From: Synechococcus elongatus PCC 11801
Lineage (GTDB): Bacteria > Cyanobacteriota > Cyanobacteriia > Synechococcales > Synechococcaceae
Assembly (NCBI RefSeq): GCF_003846445.2
Contig: NZ_CP030139.2
Coordinates: forward strand, 1,550,001-1,614,000
Direction of reading: 5' to 3'
DNA length: 64,000 nucleotides
Below are positions 3,427-42,319 of this stretch, in pieces (the first letter of the stretch is position 1; every line of letters begins with the position of its first letter). A program made the position numbers and the translations under genes. The notes below the pieces were generated by a model. It was not told the origin of the DNA and ran no database searches. It saw only the letters and a list, made by a program, of their open reading frames with translations.

Positions 3427-3939
3427 ATGATTGCTGTCGCTATGCCTCGGCGTTTCTCCTTGTTATTTGCGATCGCTTGTGCGGTCTGTCTGCTACTCGG
3501 CAGCGGTCTTGAGCGCCTGCAGGCTGCCACCTATGTTCCGGTGGATACGGTGGACCCCATTCAACCGCGCTACGCCCTGGGCCAGCAGGTCTACCGCGAT
3601 AGCTGTGGGGGCTGTCATGTGGCATTACCGCCAGAAGTGCTCCCGATTCAAACTTGGCAAATTCTCTTAAGTGAAACGCAGCACTACGGGACGACGCTGC
3701 AGCCCCTGGATGTGCCGACCCAGCGACTAGCAGCAAATTACCTGCGAACCTATACGCGATCGCTCGCTGTCGGTGAAACCGTTCCCTACCGCTTGCGCAA
3801 CTCCAGTCTCTTTCGATCGCTACACCCGCAAGTGAATGTACCAAGCACAGATCTCGTAAATAGCTGTGTGAGCTGCCATCCGGGTGCACCTCAGTTTTCC
3901 TATCGCCAACTCTCTCCTGAGTGGCAAAGCGATCGCTGA
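3427..3939 (+). CDS. Diheme cytochrome c, exported
   Basis: 170 residues with a signal peptide (basic MPRRF, hydrophobic core LLFAIACAVCLLLGSG, likely cleavage after LQA near residue 33). Two haem-binding motifs are present: CGGCH at 60-64 and CVSCH at 147-151, about 85 residues apart. This matches the small diheme cytochrome c (DHC) family of periplasmic or lumenal electron carriers; the electron donor and acceptor are unknown. A second in-frame ATG at 3442 gives a more typical signal peptide and may be the true start. It is a single gene, divergent from the GNAT gene, and followed by an AT-rich spacer. Confidence 0.88.
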   Translation: MIAVAMPRRFSLLFAIACAVCLLLGSGLERLQAATYVPVDTVDPIQPRYALGQQVYRDSCGGCHVALPPEVLPIQTWQILLSETQHYGTTLQPLDVPTQRLAANYLRTYTRSLAVGETVPYRLRNSSLFRSLHPQVNVPSTDLVNSCVSCHPGAPQFSYRQLSPEWQSDR

Positions 3940-4062
3940 ACCCTTTTTCCTGACAAGTGAAATATTTGCTTGAAGGCTCTGACTAAAATTCAAAGCTACT
4001 ACTTGCGCTCGTATTCAGTTAGCTAAAGGGCTGGCTAATTCAGTGCTTTTTTCCAAAAATAC

Positions 4063-4079
4063 GACAGCTGTACGCTGTC
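4063..4079. repeat. Inverted repeat GACAGC-TGTAC-GCTGTC before the MFS gene
   Basis: A perfect 6-base inverted repeat with a 5-base loop lies about 90-105 bases ahead of the MFS start, in an AT-rich 229-base spacer. It has no adjacent T-run, so it is a weak candidate for a terminator of the cytochrome gene and could equally be an operator. The rest of 3940-4168 shows no gene. Confidence 0.3.
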
Positions 4080-4168
4080 ATCACTATCAATTCTTAATAA
4101 GTTTTGGAGCTAACAACTTAGGCAGAAATCCAAAAGTATAGTGGGTGGTTGTTTCATCTCACTCGGCT

Positions 4169-5584
4169 ATGAGTTCCTCCATTGCCAAAAGTGTTCAGAG
4201 CCATATTGATGAAACGCCCCCGCGTCCTCTCAGCTCCATGCAGTGGCAAATCTGGAGTTTGGCGGCCATGGGAAAGCTGTTCGAAGGAATGGTGATTTTT
4301 ATTACTGGAGTTGCAGTTCCATTGATTGAGAGGGACTTCAATCTTTCCTCTGCACTCAACGGCTCTGTTGCAGCAGCAACCCTATTTGGAATCTTGATTG
4401 GGGCATCCCTGTTTGGCAACCTGGCCGATCGCTATGGGCGGAAGTTTGTGTTCGTCGTTGAAATGGCAATTTTTACAATTGCGATCGCCCTATCAGCGAT
4501 AGCTTGGAATGTCTCAGTCTTAATTTTCTTTCTTTTTTGTAGTGGCTTGGCTCTGGGAGCCGATTATCCTACTGCTCATATTATTGTGTCCGAGTCAATT
4601 CCTAGTCGATTTCGCGGCCGGATGGTGTTGGGAGCCTTTGCCTTCCAATCGGTTGGCTCTCTAGCTGGCGTTTTAATTGGGTTGCTCGTTTTGCGAGTGT
4701 ATCCAGAAGTGGGGGCTTGGCACTGGATGTACGCAGCCCTTGTGATTCCGGGAATCCTTGTCTTTTTGATGAGAACTAAACTACCAGAAAGCCCTCACTG
4801 GTTGGTCTCTCGAAAACGGTTTGAACTAGCTCATCGGGCTGCTAAAGAATTGCTGCAACGGCCGGTAGCGATTGCTCAAACTCACTCCGATGAGGGGAGG
4901 CAAAACTCCAGACTAGGCTACAGAAAATTATTGACACCTCGATATCTAAGAGCGACAGTCCTCGCCTCTTTTCCTTGGTTTCTTCAGGATCTGGCAACCT
5001 ATGGAATTGGTATTTTTACTCCCACTATTTTGTCGACTCTATTTACAAAAAATCAGCCTAATTTCGTCTTTCAAGACATGATTGCCACGGAAGGATCAGG
5101 ACTCATTGATCTGTTCTTGCTGATTGGGTTTGCAGTCTCTATCCCCCTAGTCGATAAGGTTGGGCGTATTCCTCTGCAGATCATCGGCTTTATTGGCTGT
5201 TTTGTTGGACTTGGCATTGCCTCTCTTTCAGCAGCAAGTATCCCAGAAGGTCATGAACTAAAAATTCTCTTTATTTTTGGTGGATTTATCATTTTTAACT
5301 TCATGACCAATCTAGGGCCAAATGCGATGACCTATGTTTTGGCAGGTGAGGTGTTTCCAACAGAAATTCGTGGCGTGGGAGCCGGCTTTGCTGCCTCATT
5401 TGCCAAAATTGGTGCGGTGGCTACGGCTTTCTTCTTTCCAATCCTGCGCGAGCAAATTGGGACTGTCTCTCTCCTGTACGGGTTAGCCGCAACATCGCTT
5501 TTGGGAGCCTTGGTAACATTCCTGTTTCGGATTGAACCTAATGGCCGAAGTCTGGAAGAATTAAGCGAGAAGCCTTTTGTTTAG
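4169..5584 (+). CDS. MFS transporter, sugar-porter-like
   Basis: About 471 residues with roughly 12 hydrophobic segments; inner-membrane proton-coupled or facilitative carrier. The diagnostic loop 2-3 motif is present (GNLADRYGRKFVF) and recurs in weaker form in the second half (PLVDKVGRIPLQ). Helix 4-6 residues (GLALGADYPTA, ESIPSRFRGRM) resemble the sugar porter / metabolite:H+ symporter subfamily; the substrate is unknown. I start at ATG 4169; an in-frame GTG at 4145 would add 8 residues. Base composition is AT-richer than the neighbours (one sampled 60-base line, 5041-5100, is 38% G+C) and only one HIP1 octamer was seen, which suggests acquisition later than its surroundings. Confidence 0.88.
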   Translation: MSSSIAKSVQSHIDETPPRPLSSMQWQIWSLAAMGKLFEGMVIFITGVAVPLIERDFNLSSALNGSVAAATLFGILIGASLFGNLADRYGRKFVFVVEMAIFTIAIALSAIAWNVSVLIFFLFCSGLALGADYPTAHIIVSESIPSRFRGRMVLGAFAFQSVGSLAGVLIGLLVLRVYPEVGAWHWMYAALVIPGILVFLMRTKLPESPHWLVSRKRFELAHRAAKELLQRPVAIAQTHSDEGRQNSRLGYRKLLTPRYLRATVLASFPWFLQDLATYGIGIFTPTILSTLFTKNQPNFVFQDMIATEGSGLIDLFLLIGFAVSIPLVDKVGRIPLQIIGFIGCFVGLGIASLSAASIPEGHELKILFIFGGFIIFNFMTNLGPNAMTYVLAGEVFPTEIRGVGAGFAASFAKIGAVATAFFFPILREQIGTVSLLYGLAATSLLGALVTFLFRIEPNGRSLEELSEKPFV

Positions 5585-9035: not shown

Positions 9036-9610
9036 TTAGACCTTCCTCGGGTAGCGTGATTGCTAGATGCAGTCGCAGTAACCTTGCTTATTGTGGCTTA
9101 GCCTGTGCTGACGCGGATCTCAGCCGCACCCAAAATCAGAATGACAATTTCTATCATCGCTATTGAGCGTATAGACACAGCAGCGCTTCAGGCTCCTGCC
9201 AAAACTCCTAGAAGCACTGCGATCGCACCGTTGTTAGTCGGATTACTGGGTCATCCCAAAAACTCCTAATCGTATCGGTAGACACGATTCAGGAAAATGC
9301 TGTAGTATTTATGATTGTCGCTCTGTTGCGGTAAGCACGACCCAACGCTCTCGTGCCTAGGCCGTTGCAAATCAGCGATAACTTCGTTGCCGACCGGAAA
9401 ACGCCCTGGCAATTTGCAAGCCTGTCTTGCAGCTCAGGATACTGAAGTCTTTTTACTTCAAGTCCTTGCCAGTCAGATAGCAGGTTTCACCAGCGATCGC
9501 CTCCAGCGTCGACACGAATAACACTCTGGGATGAAACCTTGGGTTTCGTCCTCTCGGGCTGCTTGGCAGTCTGAGGCCCTCGTAGCGTTGATGCAGGAGT
9601 CTCATTGACC
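9036..9610 (+). promoter_or_regulatory. Long leader / divergent promoter region before the ribosomal cluster
   Basis: 575 bases without a convincing gene between ndhN and rplC. A possible -10 element TAGTAT lies at about 9303-9308. If it is used, the rplC leader would be about 300 nt. Within the leader is a weak hairpin (TGAAGT ... ACTTCA, around 9450) and a strong one at 9528-9552: GATGAAACC, loop TTG, GGTTTCGTC, extended by two further pairs. Ribosomal protein operons are often controlled by a ribosomal protein binding such a leader hairpin, but I do not recognise this as a known class. One HIP1 octamer is at 9493. Confidence 0.5.
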
Positions 9611-10252
9611 GTGTCTATCGGCATACTCGGCACCAAGCTCGGCATGACCCAGATTTTCGATGAATCTGGTAAGGCAGTTCCCGTGACTGTCATTCAAGCT
9701 GGGCCTTGCCCGATCACTCAGATCAAAACTGTGGCGACGGATGGCTACAACGCCGTCCAAGTCGGCTTCTTGGAAGTTCGCGAAAAGCAACTGTCCAAGC
9801 CGGAACTTGGCCACCTTTCCAAAGCGGGTGCACCGCCACTGCGTCACCTCTTGGAATACCGCGTTGCTAACACTGATGGTCTAGAGCTGGGTCAAGCTCT
9901 CACGGCTGATCGGTTTGAAGCGGGCCAGAAAGTAGACGTTCAAGGCTACACGATTGGTCGCGGTTTTTCTGGCTATCAAAAGCGCCATGGCTTTGCCCGT
10001 GGTCCGATGAGCCACGGTTCGAAAAACCACCGTCTTCCCGGTTCGACGGGTGCAGGGACGACTCCTGGTCGCGTCTATCCTGGCAAGCGGATGGCAGGTC
10101 GCTATGGCAACGACAAAACAACGATTCGCGGCTTGACCGTGGTTCGAGTCGATGCAGACCGCAATCTGCTTCTGGTCAAAGGTTCGGTTCCGGGTAAACC
10201 AGGTGCTCTGCTCAACATCACGCCCGCCACTGTGGTCGGGCAACAGGCCTAA
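9611..10252 (+). CDS. rplC: 50S ribosomal protein L3
   Basis: 213 residues; early-assembling 23S rRNA-binding protein near the peptidyl-transferase centre. Starts with the family N-terminus [17 protein letters not shown] and has the central loop [20 protein letters not shown] and the KRMAGRYGN segment. GTG 9611 gives this conserved N-terminus. TTG 9605 lies closer to the AGGAG at 9595-9599 and would add two residues, so the start is not fully certain. First gene of a fused S10-spc-alpha cluster; rpsJ, which heads the Escherichia coli operon, is not here, as is usual in cyanobacteria, where it sits with tufA. Confidence 0.97.
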
Positions 10253-10296
10253 GAAGATGTGGGCGATTGCAGAACTGACTTGTTTGGTGCAGAAGC

Positions 10297-10929
10297 ATGG
10301 TTGATTACGTCATTCAGGATTGGCAGGGCCAAACCGCAGGCAACATCACGGTTGATTTGCGGGCTGCGAAAGAAGAAAGTGCTGCGGCGATCGTGCACCG
10401 CGCCTTGATCCGTCAATTGGCCAACGCACGACAAGGCAACCACTCCAGCAAAACCCGCTCGGAAGTGCGGGGGGGTGGCCGTAAGCCTTGGAAACAAAAA
10501 GGAACAGGGCGTGCTCGCGCTGGTTCAATTCGTTCTCCCCTCTGGCGGGGTGGCGGGGTTATCTTCGGACCCAAGCCCCGCGACTACAGCATCAAAATGA
10601 ACCGCAAAGAGCGTCGTTTGGCGCTGCGGACTGCTTTGGTGAGCCGGAGTGCGGATCTGGTGGTCGTCCAAGAGTTTGCCGACCAAATCAGCCGTCCCAA
10701 AACGAAAGATGTGGTTGAAGCCTTGACCCGTTGGGGTGTTGAGCCTGGCGTCAAAGTTCTATTGATCACTGCCGAGCGCGACCAAAACGTCGAGCTGTCA
10801 GTGCGCAACTTGTCCAACGTCAAGCTGATCACGGCAACCAATCTCAACGTCTTTGATCTGCTCAATGCAGATCGAATTGTCAGCACCAGTGCAGCGCTGG
10901 AGAAGATTCAGGAGGTCTACGGTGGCTGA
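10297..10929 (+). CDS. rplD: 50S ribosomal protein L4
   Basis: 210 residues. Binds domain I of 23S rRNA, and its long extension lines the peptide exit tunnel. That extension is visible as [19 protein letters not shown] followed by SPLWRGGG. The globular part ends with [19 protein letters not shown]. In other bacteria L4 represses its own S10 operon; whether it binds the leader hairpin upstream of rplC here is open. The coding end overlaps the rplW start by 8 bases, which points to translational coupling. Confidence 0.97.
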
Positions 10930-11224
10930 AGCGAATATTCGTGCACTCGCGGACATCATCCGTCGTCCGATCATCACTGAGAAAGCGACCCGGCTACTGG
11001 AAAACAATCAGTACACCTTTGAGGTCGATCCCCGTGCTAGCAAGCCTGAAATCAAGGCTGCGATCGAAGCCCTCTTCCAAGTCAAAGTGGTGGGTCTGAG
11101 CACACAGTTGCCACCGCGCAAAGCTCGTCGTGTGGGCCGTTTTGCTGGGCACCGTGCCCAAGTCAAGCGGGCGGTTGCTCGTTTGGCTGACGGCGATAGC
11201 ATCACGCTCTTCCCCGAAGTTTGA
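10922..11224 (+). CDS. rplW: 50S ribosomal protein L23
   Basis: 100 residues. Sits at the exit of the peptide tunnel, where SRP and trigger factor dock. Landmarks are [16 protein letters not shown], the [17 protein letters not shown] helix and [15 protein letters not shown]. The GTG at 10922 overlaps the end of rplD and is preceded by AGGAGG inside rplD (near 10910). Upstream in-frame codons exist but are not part of the family. Confidence 0.96.
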
Positions 11225-11253
11225 GTCGTCGCAAGTAGGAAATCACCAAGATT

Positions 11254-12117
11254 ATGGGAATCCGAGCCTTTCGGCCTTACACACCGGGAACCCGCGAACG
11301 CGTCGTCTCTGACTACGCTGAAATTACGCGCAACGAGCCTGAAAAGTCGCTGCTGGTTTCCAAGCATCGGCGTAAGGGTCGCAACAACCGCGGTGTGATC
11401 ACCTGCCGTCACCGGGGCGGCGGTCATAAACGTCTCTATCGCATCATTGACTTCAAGCGCGATAAGCGAAATATCGCCGGCAAAATTGTTTCGGTCGAAT
11501 ACGACCCGAACCGTAACGCCCGTATTTCGCTGGTCTATTACGAAGATGGCGAAAAACGCTACATCCTGACTCCAGCGGGCGTCCAAGTGGGCACCACGAT
11601 CATCGCTGGTGAGGATGCACCCTTTGAAGTGGGCAATGCTTTGCCTCTGCAGAACATCCCTCTGGGTACGACTGTCCACAACGTGGAATTGGTTGCAGGT
11701 AAAGGCGGCCAAATTGTTCGTGCGGCAGGTGCTTCGGCTCAAGTAGTTGCGAAAGAAGGCAACTATGTGGCCCTCAAGCTTCCCTCGACTGAGGTGCGCT
11801 TGGTTCGCAAAGAGTGCTACGCCACGATTGGTGCTGTTGGCAACGCTGAAGTCCGTAATACCAGCTTGGGCAAAGCGGGCCGCAAACGTTGGCTGGGCCG
11901 TCGTCCGGAAGTTCGCGGTAGCGTCATGAACCCGGTGGATCACCCCCACGGTGGTGGTGAAGGTCGGGCTCCGATCGGTCGCAGTGGCCCGGTCACCCCT
12001 TGGGGCAAACCAGCTCTGGGTCGGAAAACACGGAAGAAGAACAAGCAGAGCGATCGCCTGATTCAGCGTCGTCGCCGCAAGTCTTCCAAACGGGGTCGCG
12101 GTGGTCGCGACGCGTAA
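11254..12117 (+). CDS. rplB: 50S ribosomal protein L2
   Basis: 287 residues, full family length. Needed for subunit joining and peptidyl-transferase activity. The N-terminal part shows [15 protein letters not shown] and the RNA-binding [18 protein letters not shown]. The C-terminal part has the conserved [16 protein letters not shown] loop with the His close to the catalytic centre, and a very basic tail. Confidence 0.98.
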
Positions 12118-15232: not shown

Positions 15233-15772
15233 ATGTCCCTCAAAACCAAGTACCGAGACATCATCGTTCCGAAATTGATGAAGGAGTTCGGCTACACGAA
15301 CATTCATCAAGTTCCCAAAGTTGTCAAAGTGACGATTAACCGTGGCTTGGGCGAAGCAGCCCAGAATGCCAAGGCGTTAGAGTCCTCCCTCGCTGAAGTT
15401 GCTAAGATCGCTGGTCAAAAGCCAGTTGTCACTCGGGCGAAAAAAGCGATCGCAGGCTTCAAGATTCGTGCTGGCATGCCTGTCGGCTTGATGGTGACCT
15501 TGCGGGGCGATCGTCGCGATGCGTTCCTCGAACGGTTGATCAATCTGGCCCTGCCGCGAATTCGTGACTTTCGTGGCATCAGCCCCCGTAGCTTTGACGG
15601 GCGTGGGAACTACACCCTTGGTCTGCGCGAGCAGCTGATCTTTCCCGAGATCACTTACGACAGCATCGACCAGATCCGCGGCATGGACATCACCATTGTC
15701 ACCAGTGCCAACAGCGACGAAGAAGGCCGTGCGCTGCTGCGTGAGCTGGGCATGCCCTTCCGGGAGAACTAA
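15233..15772 (+). CDS. rplE: 50S ribosomal protein L5
   Basis: 179 residues; binds 5S rRNA in the central protuberance and contacts P-site tRNA. Landmarks: [37 protein letters not shown], and [17 protein letters not shown]. The 42-base gap before it is one of the longer ones in this part of the cluster. Confidence 0.98.
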
Positions 15773-15799
15773 GAGGCACTTCCAAGCGAAGAGGAAATT

Positions 15800-16201
15800 A
15801 TGGCGGTCAACGATCCGATTGCAGATATGCTGACGCGCATCCGGAATGCCAGCGAAGCGCGCCACGCGACCACCGTGGTGCCCGCATCCCGGCTTGCTCG
15901 CAGTATTGCTGAAGTGCTCAAGCGCGAAGGCTTCATCGCTGACTTTGAAGAAAGCGGCGAAGGCGTTCAACGTCACCTTGTGCTGAGCCTGAAATACAAG
16001 GGCAAAAATCAGCAGCCCATCATCAAAGCCCTCAAGCGGGTCAGCAAACCCGGCTTGCGAGTTTATTCCAACCGTCGTGACCTACCGCGCGTTTTGGGCG
16101 GTATTGGCATCGCGATTATCTCCACTTCCCAAGGCATCATGACGGACCGAGATGCTCGGCGTCAGGGAGTGGGTGGCGAAGTGCTCTGCTACGTCTGGTA
16201 G
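15800..16201 (+). CDS. rpsH: 30S ribosomal protein S8
   Basis: 133 residues; binds the central domain of 16S rRNA and in other bacteria represses the spc operon. Starts [20 protein letters not shown] and ends with the conserved [27 protein letters not shown] precedes the ATG. Confidence 0.98.
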
Positions 16202-16237
16202 TCGACCGGTTGTCGGAGTCCCCACAGGAGCAGTCCA

Positions 16238-16777
16238 GTGTCTCGTATTGGTAAACGTCCCATCCCTATCCCCGCGAAGGTCAGCGTGGCGATCGACGGT
16301 CGTTTGGTGTCTGTCAAAGGCCCCAAAGGCGAACTGAGTCGCGAGCTACCCAGCGGCGTTGTCGTGACTCAAGAAGACGGCAACATCATCGTGTCGCGCG
16401 CCGATGAATCGCGCCTTGCCCGCCAACGTCACGGCCTGAGCCGGACGCTGGTTGCCAACTTGGTTGAGGGCGTCGATGCCGGCTTCCAAAAGCGCTTGGA
16501 AATCATCGGTGTTGGTTACCGGGCCCAAGTTCAAGGCAAGACCTTGGTCTTGAATGTCGGCTACAGCAACCCTGTGCAAATTGAACCGCCCGATGGCATT
16601 CAGTTTGCAGTCGAGAACAACACCAACGTGATTGTTAGCGGCATTAGTAAAGAAGTCGTGGGTAACACGGCTGCCCGCATCCGCGCCGTGCGGCCCCCTG
16701 AACCCTACAAGGGTAAAGGGATTCGCTATGCAGGCGAGGTTGTCCTCCGTAAGGCTGGCAAGACAGGTAAGAAGTGA
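16238..16777 (+). CDS. rplF: 50S ribosomal protein L6
   Basis: 179 residues; two-domain protein near the sarcin-ricin loop and factor-binding site. GTG start with AGGAG upstream gives [15 protein letters not shown]. The C-terminal signature [18 protein letters not shown] is complete. Its TGA stop overlaps the rplR ATG by one base. Confidence 0.98.
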
Positions 16778-17139
16778 TGAAAGTAAGTCGTCGCGAATCC
16801 ACCCGTCGCAGACACCGCCGTGTTCGCCGCACGATTGTCGGCACGCCGGCTCGTCCGCGTCTGTCGGTGTTTCGCTCCAACAACCACATCTATGCGCAAG
16901 TGATCGACGATGCTGCGGGCCACACGTTGGCTGCTGCATCCAGTCTCGATCCGGATCTGCGCCAAGCATTGACGTCTGGTGGCAACCAGCAAGCTTCGGC
17001 AGCCGTCGGCAAGCTGATTGCCGAACGGGCTCAAGCCAAAGGCGTTACGACTGTCGTGTTCGATCGCGGCGGCAACCTTTACCATGGTCGCGTCAAGGCT
17101 TTGGCCGAGGCGGCCCGCGAAGCTGGACTGGAGTTCTAG
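16777..17139 (+). CDS. rplR: 50S ribosomal protein L18
   Basis: 120 residues; binds 5S rRNA together with L5. Begins [20 protein letters not shown], with the core [19 protein letters not shown] and the ending [20 protein letters not shown] use ATG 16777, which overlaps the rplF stop; a GTG three bases earlier is also in frame. Confidence 0.97.
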
Positions 17140-17142
17140 GTG

Positions 17143-17685
17143 ATGGCTGAAGAGAAAGACAAGAAGCAGTCTTCCCGTCGGCGCAGCAATCGTCGCACCG
17201 AGAAGGAAAGCGAGTGGCAAGAGCGGGTGGTTCAAATCCGCCGTGTCACCAAGGTCGTCAAGGGTGGTAAGAAACTCAGCTTCCGGGCGATCGTGATCGT
17301 TGGTAACGAGCGCGGTCAAGTGGGTGTTGGTGTGGGCAAAGCCAGCGACGTGATCGGTGCTGTCCGTAAGGGCGTGGCCGATGGCAAAAAACACCTCGTC
17401 AGCGTGCCCTTGACCCGTGATCAGTCCATTCCTCACCCCAGCACTGGGGAAGGCGGGGCTGCTCAAGTCCTGATCCGTCCTGCAGCGCCTGGTACTGGTG
17501 TAATTGCCGGTGGTGCTGTCCGGACTGTCTTGGAGCTGGCTGGCGTCAAAAACGTGTTGGCGAAACGCTTGGGTTCCAAGAGTCCGCTCAACAACGCCCG
17601 TGCTGCTTTGGAAGCCCTGTCTAGCCTACGGACCTTCCAAGAGGTTGCTCAATCCCGCGATATCCCGGTTGAGCAGCTGTACTAG
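17143..17685 (+). CDS. rpsE: 30S ribosomal protein S5
   Basis: 180 residues; part of the mRNA entry site and the decoding fidelity network. The N-terminal extension is very charged ([18 protein letters not shown]). The dsRBD-like part follows ([20 protein letters not shown]), and the C-terminal domain has [22 protein letters not shown] 17143 is preferred over the GTG directly before it. Confidence 0.97.
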
Positions 17686-17722
17686 GCCGTTTTCTTTGCT
17701 CTTGGTTTCAAGGTGATGGTTC

Positions 17723-18166
17723 ATGAAACTCGATAATCTCGCTCCGCAACCGGGAGCGAAAAAGCGTAAGCGCCGAGTGGGCCGGGGCATTGCCGCTGGC
17801 CAAGGCGCAAGCTGTGGTTTCGGGATGCGTGGTCAAAAGTCGCGCTCGGGTCGTCCGACTCGGCCTGGCTTTGAAGGGGGCCAAATGCCTCTTTACCGCC
17901 GCGTGCCCAAGCTGAAGCACTTCCCGCTGGTCAACCGCAAGTCTTACACGGTGGTTAACGTCGGTGCGTTGGCTGATTTGGCCGCTGGCACTGAAGTCAC
18001 TCTGGACAGCTTGATGGCTGCCGGGATTGTGACCCAGAACGATGGCCCGCTCAAGATTTTGGGTGATGGCGATCTCGCCGTGAAGCTCTCGGTGACTGCT
18101 GCAGCCTTCACCGCAACCGCTCGCCAAAAAATTGAAGCGGCGGGTGGCAGCTTCACCATTGCTTGA
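17723..18166 (+). CDS. rplO: 50S ribosomal protein L15
   Basis: 147 residues; late-assembling 23S rRNA-binding protein. The extended Gly/Arg-rich N-terminus ([20 protein letters not shown]) and the C-terminal signature around [19 protein letters not shown] are clear. rpmD (L30), which precedes rplO in many bacteria, is absent, as is usual in cyanobacteria. Followed by two hairpins before secY. Confidence 0.97.
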
Positions 18167-18185
18167 ATCAGCGATCGCTGATTCC

Positions 18186-38249: not shown

Positions 38250-38945
38250 ATGTCTTTTAAGACGATTCTGGTGGCAGGAGCCAGTCGTGGCATCGGTCTT
38301 GCTGTTGCAGAACACCTCATCCACCAGTGCGATCGCCTTGTGGCAGTGTCGCGAACAGCGGCTCCGGTGAGGGAGTGGATTCAGGCAGATTTATCTGAGT
38401 TAGCGGGAATCAAAACGGTGGCTCAAGCGATCGGGGAGGATTCCCTCGATGCGCTGCTGTACATGGGTGGAACTTGGGAAACCCATGCGTTTACACCCCA
38501 ATATGACTTTGAAACCTGTTCGGATGAGGATATTGCTCGGGTTATTGCGGTCAATCTCCTTGCGCCGATTCGCTTGGTGAAAGCATTACTGCCTGCGCTG
38601 CGGCGATCGCATAATCCAAAAATTATTTTTATGGGCGCTCTTTCGGGTCGAGATAATTTCCCTGCTAGAGAGGTTGCCAATAGCGCGTCGAAGTTTGGGC
38701 TGCGGGGAGTCGTTCACGCCTTGCGGGAAGAATTGCGATCGCAGCAAATTGGGGTCACGGTGATTAATCCGGGTAATGTGGGCACCCCAGAAGTATTAGC
38801 GGATCTTGCAGCAGCCCACTTGACAGGCAGCGAGGCGATTCCCTTGAGTGATCTTCTGTCGATTCTTGACTGTGTTCTCTCTTTGTCGCGAGCCACCTGC
38901 ATCAAAGAGATTGATGTACCAGCCATGCTCGGGAGAGGGGCTTAG
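38250..38945 (+). CDS. Short-chain dehydrogenase with catalytic Tyr replaced by Asn
   Basis: 231 residues with a Rossmann fold. The cofactor motif is ILVAGASRGIGLAVAEHL, and N in AVNLLAP is kept. At the active site the usual Y-x-x-x-K is ANSASKFGLRG: Asn144 stands where Tyr is expected, while Lys148 and a plausible Ser132 remain. NNAG is also altered (LYMGGTW). The protein may bind NAD(P) without reducing a carbonyl, or use other chemistry. ATG 38250 is preferred over GTG 38247; AGGAAA lies upstream. It may close the signalling operon, though 120 bases separate it from the HD-GYP gene. Confidence 0.82.
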   Translation: MSFKTILVAGASRGIGLAVAEHLIHQCDRLVAVSRTAAPVREWIQADLSELAGIKTVAQAIGEDSLDALLYMGGTWETHAFTPQYDFETCSDEDIARVIAVNLLAPIRLVKALLPALRRSHNPKIIFMGALSGRDNFPAREVANSASKFGLRGVVHALREELRSQQIGVTVINPGNVGTPEVLADLAAAHLTGSEAIPLSDLLSILDCVLSLSRATCIKEIDVPAMLGRGA

Positions 38946-39181
38946 GACTATGGTCTCTAGTGCGGGGGTGTTTTCACGATCGCAACTACTACCAGTCGTC
39001 ATAACTATTCCCAACTCTGATCCTAGAGCTTGAGTAAGCCTCCCTGTTAGGTTGAAAGTCCTCAGCACAAGAGCTATGGCAGTTAGTGAAATCCAGTCTA
39101 GGCAAGCACAGAATCAACATACAATAAAACATCAAGATAAAGTAAAATTCAGTTTGGCGTTTTGAATTCTGTTTGCAGTTT
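38946..39181. other. Spacer at the left edge of the AT-rich island
   Basis: No gene seen. G+C falls sharply after about 39080. A short inverted repeat AATTCA / TGAATT lies at 39146-39168, just before the start of the HExxH protein gene. No HIP1 octamer, integrase site or tRNA is visible. The composition change, not a repeat, marks the edge. Confidence 0.4.
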
Positions 39182-40549
39182 ATGAAATTCTCAAATTTCA
39201 AGGAAATATCTAAACAATGGAATTGTTTTTCTGCAACAGATACGCTAGGTTCATTTGATTTTTATACGACAATAGTTTCTCTAGACTCCCTTACGCTACC
39301 AGAGATAAGAATTGCCAAAGAAAAGCTTTCTGAGTTTTATCAACATTCGCTCCAAGATCCAAACACTTTGCTAGATGAAAACTCATATCATCCCATAGCC
39401 AAGGTTTTTCCTTTGGCAGTACATGAATACACTCATTTTATCGATGCAACATCGACAATTTGGGGCCTTAATTATTTAAAAATAATGAAAGAATCTTATG
39501 AGTCAAATAATGTTAGAGGAGGTCGAGAATCTGATTTTCATAAAGCCAAAAAACATTATGATTTTATAAGAAAACTCAGGCTTCCTGAGTACTATACCCT
39601 TAGAGAACCTAACACTCTTAATGTTCGGCCATGGCGATATAAACTCACTACAGGCTTACTTTTTGATCAACAGGGCAATCCTTCTGACAGAGCAGTTGCT
39701 TTCACCCAGTTTATGAATGCAAAAAATGAGTTCTTAGTGAGATCTCCTATATCTATGGTTGCACTACTTGAGATGTCTGCAATGGCGCAAGAAGTGTTGA
39801 TGAATATATTTTTATTAATGTCTACTAATACTGAATTTCAATCAATTGAAGGTAGCCAGTACTCTAATGTACTAATGGAATATTTATACAATCCAGATAT
39901 TACCGAGTATTCTGTATGTGTTCATCTTGTAGCTAACTTGTTAAGCCTTGAGGATCCAGCACTAGCATTCAGAGTCTGTGCTGTCTTATCCAGAATTATA
40001 CTTAATGTCCCAATAAATTATTTTTCTAGACTATCCGAAAGCTGTCCGATTCAAAATATTTTAAGACTTCATGAGAATGATAATGCTGTTCAATACTTTA
40101 GAAATGGACTATCTTCCTGCGACTATGGAACATTATTTTATTTGATGTGTCATGCCCTTCCAAAAGGTAACTATGAGTCGGCGCAAGCAATTCAATCATC
40201 TGTAGAAGCATCTATCTCAGAACTTGGAATTAACCTCGAGGAAATGCAGTCTGATATGACTCGAGAAGCACAAGATCTTTGTCAACAGATTGTGACATCT
40301 AAAATTCCTGAGATACAACAACTAGCCAAAGCTGGATACCAAAACTTTCTTAAAATTAAAGCTAACAACCCTCGTATAACACTCGAACAGCTCAATCTTC
40401 CACCAGTACTTTTGTCTGATTCAGAATACCTAAGCATATTCCCAAACGCTAATAATCTATTGTCAACTTTTAATATTGATTCTGCCTTCGAAGAACTATA
40501 CTCGAAAGGTCAGGCTTGGGTTGAGCGATTTTCTGAGGCATGCGTATGA
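39182..40549 (+). CDS. Unknown protein with HEYTH (HExxH) zinc-protease motif, AT-rich
   Basis: 455 residues, no family recognised. FPLAVHEYTHFIDATSTIWG carries an HExxH motif at about residues 81-85 in a hydrophobic helix, the hallmark of zincin metallopeptidases. A candidate third ligand is Glu197 or Glu204 in ALLEMSAMAQEVL, about 112-119 residues later. The rest is mostly helical with no signal peptide or membrane segment, so it is probably cytoplasmic. Three sampled 60-base lines are 27, 27 and 35% G+C, against 58% in a line of gltX, and no HIP1 octamer occurs in it. Codon use (many AAA, TTA, AGA, ATA) differs from all neighbours. Recent transfer is likely. ATG 39182 preferred over TTG 39173. 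Confidence 0.8.
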   Translation: MKFSNFKEISKQWNCFSATDTLGSFDFYTTIVSLDSLTLPEIRIAKEKLSEFYQHSLQDPNTLLDENSYHPIAKVFPLAVHEYTHFIDATSTIWGLNYLKIMKESYESNNVRGGRESDFHKAKKHYDFIRKLRLPEYYTLREPNTLNVRPWRYKLTTGLLFDQQGNPSDRAVAFTQFMNAKNEFLVRSPISMVALLEMSAMAQEVLMNIFLLMSTNTEFQSIEGSQYSNVLMEYLYNPDITEYSVCVHLVANLLSLEDPALAFRVCAVLSRIILNVPINYFSRLSESCPIQNILRLHENDNAVQYFRNGLSSCDYGTLFYLMCHALPKGNYESAQAIQSSVEASISELGINLEEMQSDMTREAQDLCQQIVTSKIPEIQQLAKAGYQNFLKIKANNPRITLEQLNLPPVLLSDSEYLSIFPNANNLLSTFNIDSAFEELYSKGQAWVERFSEACV

Positions 40550-40873
40550 TTAAACTTAGTTTTGTTTTTACTAGCAGTAGCAATTAATAGTGCAAAGAAT
40601 AATTTCTGTCTTGTTTTAGCCTTGTCACAAAGAACGTAAAACAAGAACCTAGTAATGAAGGATTCCATTAGTTTCTAAAGGAAACTTTATTGTGCTTTCT
40701 AGCTGCTATAGAAAATATTGCAAATATTTACTACCCAATCTTTGGTTTTCAATAAGATGCCTAATCAGTAACCTCTCTACGGATGTCAACATTGAGAATA
40801 ATTGCTCTAGTTGGGGATTAATCAGCTGCCGTGACGCCGTACGATCGAGAACTGCAGCCCGTTGGAAATCACT
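40550..40873. other. AT-rich spacer between the island gene and gltX
   Basis: 324 bases without a credible gene; low G+C up to about 40790, then normal composition. It holds a nested inverted repeat at 40611-40646 (described separately) and presumably the gltX promoter. A possible short reading frame here overlaps gltX in another frame and is rejected. Confidence 0.45.
40611..40646. repeat. Nested inverted repeat downstream of the HExxH gene
   Basis: Outer arms CTTGTTTTA (40611-40619) and TAAAACAAG (40638-40646) are perfect; the 18-base spacer holds a second small palindrome TTGTCACAA. It lies 62 bases after the stop. It could be a terminator with the T-run inside the stem, a protein binding site, or the trace of an inserted element. 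Confidence 0.5.
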
Positions 40874-42319
40874 GTGTCAGTTCGCGTTCGCATTGCTCCT
40901 AGCCCCACCGGCAACCTCCACATCGGCACGGCACGCACCGCCGTCTTCAACTGGTTGTTTGCGCGGCGGCATCAGGGCCAGTTCATCCTGCGCATCGAAG
41001 ATACGGACCTCGAGCGATCGCGATCGGAATACACCGACAACATCCTGACCGGCCTCAAATGGCTGGGCTTGAACTGGGACGAAGGCCCGTTCTACCAAAC
41101 CCAGCGGCTCGACCTCTATAAAGCCGCCGTGCAGCAATTGCTCGACAGTGGCAAAGCCTATCGCTGCTACTGCACCGAAGCTGAACTCGAAGCCCTGCGC
41201 GAGTCGCAACGCGCCCGCAACGAAGCCCCGCGCTACGACAACCGCCACCGCGATCTGACGCCAGAGCAAGAAGCCGCGTTTCAAGCCGAAGGACGCGAAG
41301 CCGTGATTCGCTTCCGCATTGATGACGATCGCGAAATCGCTTGGACAGACTTAGTGCGCGATCGCGTTGTCTGGAAAGGCAGTGACCTCGGTGGCGACAT
41401 GGTGATTGCCCGCCGCAGTCCCGCTGGCACCATCGGCCAGCCGCTCTACAACCTCGCGGTCGTGGTCGATGACATCGACATGACGATCAGCCATGTGATT
41501 CGTGGCGAAGACCACATTGCCAACACCGCCAAGCAAATCCTGCTCTACGAAGCGCTGGGTGCAGCGGTGCCCAAGTTTGCCCACACGCCGCTGATCCTCA
41601 ACAAGGAAGGTCGCAAACTCTCCAAGCGCGATGGCGTCACCTCCATCTCCGACTTCCAAAACTTGGGCTATCTCCCCGAGGCGATCGCCAACTACATGAC
41701 CCTGCTCGGCTGGTCGCCCGTCGAAGGCATGGATGAACGCTTCAGCCTTGCCGATGCGGCTGCCGTCTTCGACTTCGATCGCGTCAACAAAGCCGGTGCC
41801 AAATTCGACTGGGACAAACTCAACTGGCTCAACAGTCAGGTGATCAAAGAGAAATCTGCCAGCGAGTTGGTCGCACTGCTACAGCCATTTTTGATCGGAG
41901 CGGGTGTCGATACAGCAGCCTATCCTGCGGCTTGGCTGGAAGAATTGGCGACCCTCTTGGGTCCCAGCCTCGTGACCTTGGCCGATGTCGTCGCCCAAAG
42001 CCAACTCTTCTTCAGTCAGAGCATTGAGCTGCAAGAAGACGCGATCGCCCAGCTGAGCCAAGAAGGTAGCAAAGCGGTTCTGCAGCAAATCCTTGAGGCG
42101 CTACCGAGTGAGGCGCTGACCCTCGAAGCCGCCAAAGGCTTGATCGATCAAGCAGTCAAAGCGGCGGGCGTCAAAAAAGGTATCGGCATGCGATCGCTGC
42201 GCGCTGCCTTGATGGGTTCGATGCAGGGTCCCGATCTGCTCACGAGCTGGGTGTTGCTGCATCAGGCTGGGCAAGCTCAACCGCGTCTGCAGGCTGCGAT
42301 CGCGGCAGCTCAGGGCTAA
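40874..42319 (+). CDS. gltX: Glutamyl-tRNA synthetase
   Basis: 481 residues, class I synthetase. [20 protein letters not shown] holds the HIGH-type motif (HIGT), and [10 protein letters not shown] the KMSKS-type motif. The C-terminal anticodon-binding helices end in [14 protein letters not shown]. In cyanobacteria it is usually non-discriminating, charging tRNA-Gln with Glu as well (family knowledge), and supplies Glu-tRNA for tetrapyrrole synthesis. GTG 40874 gives [16 protein letters not shown] 40862 would add four residues. The last 80 bases overlap the antiporter gene on the other strand. Confidence 0.97.

Follow-up and report, generated by a model that had tools for sequence, protein, structure and literature searches.

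An unnamed HExxH protein family in phage-defence sites and a candidate, probably horizontally acquired, single-gene anti-phage factor in Synechococcus elongatus

A 455-codon gene lying between a short-chain dehydrogenase (SDR) gene and gltX in Synechococcus elongatus PCC 11801 encodes a protein with an HExxH motif, and it raises the question of what such a gene does and how it came to occupy this position. We examined it within the 64-kb stretch of DNA that contains it (64,000 nucleotides, referred to here as the window), among its homologues, and by structure prediction. The reading that we favour, and to which we give somewhat better than even chances, is that horizontal transfer brought in a member of an unnamed HExxH family that acts alone against phages, that the SDR-gltX gap which houses it is a swap-in slot, and that metal-dependent peptidase activity is the likely mechanism. 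Coordinates of the features are listed in Table 1.

Table 1. Features of the SDR-gltX locus, in positions of the window.
Feature	Position	Strand	Basis
455-aa member of the HExxH family, predicted to be a metal-dependent peptidase; candidate single-gene anti-phage factor	39182..40549	+	ORF, homologue family, AlphaFold pLDDT 92
Strain-variable segment	38922..40821	.	Homology to sister breaks off at 38921 and restarts at 40822; unrelated AT-rich HEC-04-like gene in sister
Left flank, SDR gene, last codons inside variable segment	38247..38945	+	Pfam adh_short 8.6e-27; alignment end
Right flank, gltX, start taken as GTG 40874 (listed ORF from 40862)	40874..42319	+	92% DNA identity with sister
HEYTH, residues 81-85, in predicted helix 66-90; then D88, T92	39422..39436	+	Invariant in tblastn homologues; AlphaFold helix
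E197, candidate third metal ligand, predicted helix 192-213 (ExxAxxxE)	39770..39772	+	Invariant; AlphaFold helix
E204, second invariant Glu of helix 192-213	39791..39793	+	Invariant in alignments
Y243, possible catalytic or structural residue	39908..39910	+	31/31 rows
L274-N275, conserved LN pair, N in 28/31	40001..40006	+	31-row alignment
C454 of C-terminal FxxAC tail, Cys in 22/31	40541..40543	+	31-row alignment

The gene had been described from its sequence as AT-rich, AT-biased in codon use, and unlike its surroundings, and all of this is borne out: its G+C content is 35.8% with a GC3 of 27%, whereas gltX has 59.3% and 71%, and the SDR gene 53.1% and 52%. Of all 1365-bp stretches in the window, the one with the lowest G+C lies here (35.0% at 39401); stretches of this size average 55.5% (sd 4.0%), and nowhere else do they fall below 45.0%; an earlier figure of 27-35% holds for sampled lines of sequence, and not for the gene as a whole. 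The second lowest region of the window is at 3801-5400, with 43-46% G+C. The reading frame starts with an ATG at 39182 (an alternative TTG start is at 39173), and was open in none of 2,000 base shuffles. Absence of the HIP1 octamer had also been pointed out, and the HIP1-free gap around the gene is real (38735-41014, 2279 bp); it is, however, only the third largest in the window, after those at 15446-18171 and 9493-12050, so the absence says little alone and, in this DNA, does not reliably mark foreign sequence. Promoter and terminator scans gave nothing better than chance. The simplest reading is that the protein would be cytosolic, no signal peptide being evident by eye.

The locus was compared with one sister genome, no further genome of this genus being in the comparison. 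The SDR gene and gltX are 89% and 92% identical in DNA sequence between the two, and the HExxH gene is missing from the sister genome. A comparison had been suggested to see whether the SDR gene and gltX adjoin each other where the segment is absent; they do not, and the sister slot (L147:4023-5483, G001:C1) holds an unrelated 486-aa gene of 36.6% G+C, which has AAA domains, is of the AAA/TOPRIM type, and matches the PADLOC HEC-04 profile at 1.8e-52. HEC-04/IbfA is an ATPase-TOPRIM protein with experimental anti-phage action (PMC12111858). Judged by these two genomes, the SDR-gltX gap appears to be a swap-in cargo slot that has received two unrelated AT-rich single genes, one of them of a proven defence type. 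No convincing terminal repeats or att-like sites were found at the slot edges, nor a recombinase near the slot in the window. On plasmids, the sister HEC-04/IbfA relative has its best homologues (51-41% identity) in Acidiphilium, Rhodovastum, Rhodococcus, and Streptomyces.

No family had been recognised for the protein at the outset, and database profiles agree. Pfam and PADLOC 2.0.0 returned no families at E-values up to 10, the single NCBIfam row is a sub-threshold chance match, and PHROG matches were rejected as weak and local. Eight homologues with 19-30% identity were nevertheless found by tblastn against plasmids, in Cyanobacteriota, Pseudomonadota, and Bacillota, all annotated as 'hypothetical protein'. 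Single-protein scans of genome contigs and viral contigs with the window protein gave no matches. Wider recovery used a back-translated DNA pattern for HExxHxxDxxxTxWG followed by confirmation with an HMM, and true members were thereby identified at nine of ten loci in viral contigs and at 30 of 120 in genome contigs. These extend the family to Bacteroidota, Campylobacterota, Hydrogenedentes, and, with a fragment, Acidobacteriota. Many of the false matches brought in by the pattern are from a His-rich protein family of gut Firmicutes; a match in genome G393 was also rejected, being an HD-GYP protein. About 45 homologues from several bacterial phyla were found altogether, with members both on plasmids and in viral contigs, and the family is unnamed; four members sought by accession or locus tag were named in none of the papers searched.

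Only three of 386 cyanobacterial genomes have a family member. In the tree, the window protein groups with those of Thiobacillus and Paraperlucidibaca (support 97/97 and 97/92), inside a mainly Pseudomonadota group and apart from the other cyanobacterial members. These results indicate a sporadic distribution and acquisition of the gene by horizontal transfer. The Trichormus copy (L088:6298-7689; G059:C83) is probably decayed, since it has an in-frame stop near its start. On Calothrix plasmid AP018291 (L008:7977-8855) a truncated copy of 293 aa is followed by a transposase gene, a further sign of rapid turnover.

In the tblastn set, which was gathered independently of the motif, H81, E82, H85, D88, T92, P189, S191, E197, A200, E204, Y243, L274, and N275 are all invariant, and E197, E204, Y243, and L274 are invariant across the 31 rows of the larger alignment although none is part of the recovery pattern. 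The sequence-only reading had placed HEYTH in a hydrophobic helix and a possible third zinc ligand within ALLEMSAMAQE, at E197 or E204. HEYTH occupies residues 81-85 and ALLEMSAMAQE residues 194-204, the glutamate positions are correct, and the ligand proposal fits because HExxHxxD..T, E197, E204, and Y243 are invariant. AlphaFold2 run on the 31-row alignment gave a confident model (pLDDT 92.0, pTM 0.92), in which HEYTH belongs to a helix spanning 66-90 and E197/E204 to one spanning 192-213, with three strands at 152-189; a model of the catalytic domain (residues 20-285) has confidence equal to that of the whole protein. The HExxH is therefore both strictly conserved and predicted to be helical, as in peptidases of the gluzincin type (clan MA), and the two glutamates of the predicted downstream helix are candidates for the gluzincin third ligand. 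Most likely, H81, H85, and E197 would hold the metal and E82 would activate water.

A search for a zincin fold had been suggested, and its outcome is mixed. Confidence in the model is high and it puts HEYTH in a helix, yet Foldseek did not confirm the fold: it found no significant match in the PDB for either the whole protein or the catalytic domain, and none among viral models for the whole protein. The best VIA-align rows for the catalytic domain are M49 zincins, both fungal DPP III—5yfc_A with Z 4.5 (5.8 A over 146) and 5yfb_A with Z 3.8 (4.8 A over 136)—and an M1 peptidase appears for the whole model at Z 3.4, all weak and below the level that VIA-align calls meaningful; other rows are 14-3-3 and GPCR proteins. 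The conserved residues make a zincin fold likely. A more ambitious reading of the model, which we hold only tentatively, is that the family represents a widespread class of one-gene anti-phage metallopeptidases whose zincin topology is new to solved structures. The arrangement in question comprises a sheet of three strands separating the HExxH helix from the Glu helix, a His-to-Glu distance of 112 residues, and the C-terminal FxxAC tail, which might serve as a latch.

Genomic context points to a role in defence, since family members turn up again and again within or next to recognised defence genes and hotspots. A copy with 98% DNA identity to the Klebsiella member occurs in ten of 5,426 E. 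coli genomes, and in all ten listed genomes it is beside an integrase; in both of the annotated E. coli regions viewed, the gene follows a P4-like satellite integrase at tRNA-Sec and precedes psu. The psu-int locus of P4 satellites is described as a reservoir of antiviral and anti-phage systems, with largely anti-phage cargo (PMC9122126). In Hydrogenedentes the gene lies between PglW and PglX on the same strand, in cyanobacterium UBA8803 hsdS and hsdR flank it on the other strand, and in Sphingomonas it lies between JukA-like and NERD-UvrD genes with AbiJ nearby; it adjoins QatA in Colwellia and follows an LlaGI-like type ISP restriction enzyme in Cypionkella. Pooling gives 131 neighbours with matches to 272 PADLOC profiles at 1e-10, and 131 control neighbours with matches to 16, these being counts of PADLOC profiles and not of independent proteins, with the controls taken from other taxa, mostly gut Firmicutes MAGs. 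Some loci have ordinary neighbours, including sulfatase, HypD, and AcrB-type genes.

Almost no neighbour family recurs across these loci, near-identical copies aside, from which we take the unit to be one gene. This accords with the initial proposal of a single-gene accessory function, of the kind found in toxins, phage-related genes, and defence systems, for which no partner was seen. On Rhizobium plasmid pRetIE4771b (L007:5469-7934), only 21 nt separate the HExxH gene from the end of a preceding gene for an Mrr-like plus NACHT protein; the two may share a transcript, a pairing not seen at other loci. In E. coli NZ_CP027462 the HExxH gene shares the P4-like int-psu slot with an oppositely oriented gene for a hypothetical protein of 429 aa (L154:9476-10765), which at the Klebsiella locus is replaced by shorter reading frames.

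The family is thus real and uncharacterised, with a strong defence context. Because a defence-type gene occupies the sister slot and relatives of the window gene lie inside phage-defence sites, this gene makes a good candidate for an anti-virus weapon that needs no partner. We infer metal binding, peptide cleavage, a trigger, a target, and phage protection, in the following way. The protein would be a cytosolic metal-dependent peptidase, the metal probably being zinc, and would be latent in healthy cells; infection would trigger cleavage of a host or phage protein, in the simplest reading an essential one, and phage production would stop, possibly via shutdown of the cell. By analogy, its mode of action would functionally resemble that of Lit.

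An HExxH motif is no proof of peptidase activity, because alpha-ketoglutarate-dependent HExxH RiPP oxygenases exist (PMC12636437), and the protein could be a defence factor of another chemistry, with HExxHxxD...ExxAxxxE binding iron or two metals for redox or other reactions. Its two histidines and up to four invariant acids (E82, D88, E197, and E204) could hold more than one metal, and the models have no peptidase fold match. However, none of the 31 members matches TIGR04267, comparing profiles with one TIGR04267 member showed no relationship, and there is no conserved precursor peptide or RiPP gene nearby; we regard this reading as unlikely.

Two other alternatives concern whom the gene serves. 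Members on plasmids, in viral contigs, and beside the integrase of P4-like satellites would suit a selfish or inter-element gene—a toxin, or a superinfection exclusion or counter-defence function—serving plasmids, prophages, and satellites and not host immunity. An antitoxin-like partner is absent, though, members occur within BREX/Pgl and type I restriction operons, three queries against 50,697 phage records gave no match, and the cargo reported for the P4 locus points to anti-phage functions, so that we give it a similarly low probability. Less probable again, and in our judgement quite improbable, is that this is an accessory enzyme unrelated to phage that arrived in variable slots by chance: several loci have the ordinary neighbours noted above, but several independent and recognised defence settings, together with the defence-type gene in the sister slot, argue against it.

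If the single-gene anti-phage reading is true, an effector type would be added to defence annotation, and the SDR-gltX gap in this Synechococcus would be a cargo slot in which single defence-type genes replace one another. The family spans several phyla and is met repeatedly in P4 satellites and in BREX/Pgl and restriction operons, yet has no entry in Pfam, NCBIfam, or PADLOC; the E. coli member (WP_001406847, from P4-like satellites) is at hand for laboratory tests.

Stand-alone anti-phage protease effectors are rare, and the classic case is Lit, which acts in phage exclusion. Lit (peptidase U49, of the E. coli e14 prophage; annotated as 'cell death peptidase Lit') resembles members of the window family in being an HExxH protein that works as a single gene and resides on a mobile element. 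We rejected homology between them, as profile comparison shows no similarity beyond the motif (hhalign probability 1.3%) and the window protein has no Pfam match to PF10463; Lit has 297 aa with EREAD about 18 residues after HHEISH, whereas in the window protein the invariant Glu is 112 residues after H85. The M49 dipeptidyl peptidase III structures (5yfc, 5yfb) have an HExxH-type motif and a Glu helix in common with the catalytic domain, but they differ in size and Glu spacing, with no sequence similarity and the low Z scores given above. The TIGR04267 enzymes also have HExxH outside the classical peptidase families, and identity with them was rejected on the profile and RiPP-context results. 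The main text of PMC9122126 names no HExxH or metallopeptidase system among those of the P4-satellite hotspot, and the E. coli member of the family sits in that same int-psu locus. HEC-04/IbfA, an ATPase-TOPRIM protein unrelated to the window protein in sequence and mechanism, is nonetheless the same type of single-gene anti-phage cargo, with a member in the very same slot of the sister genome.
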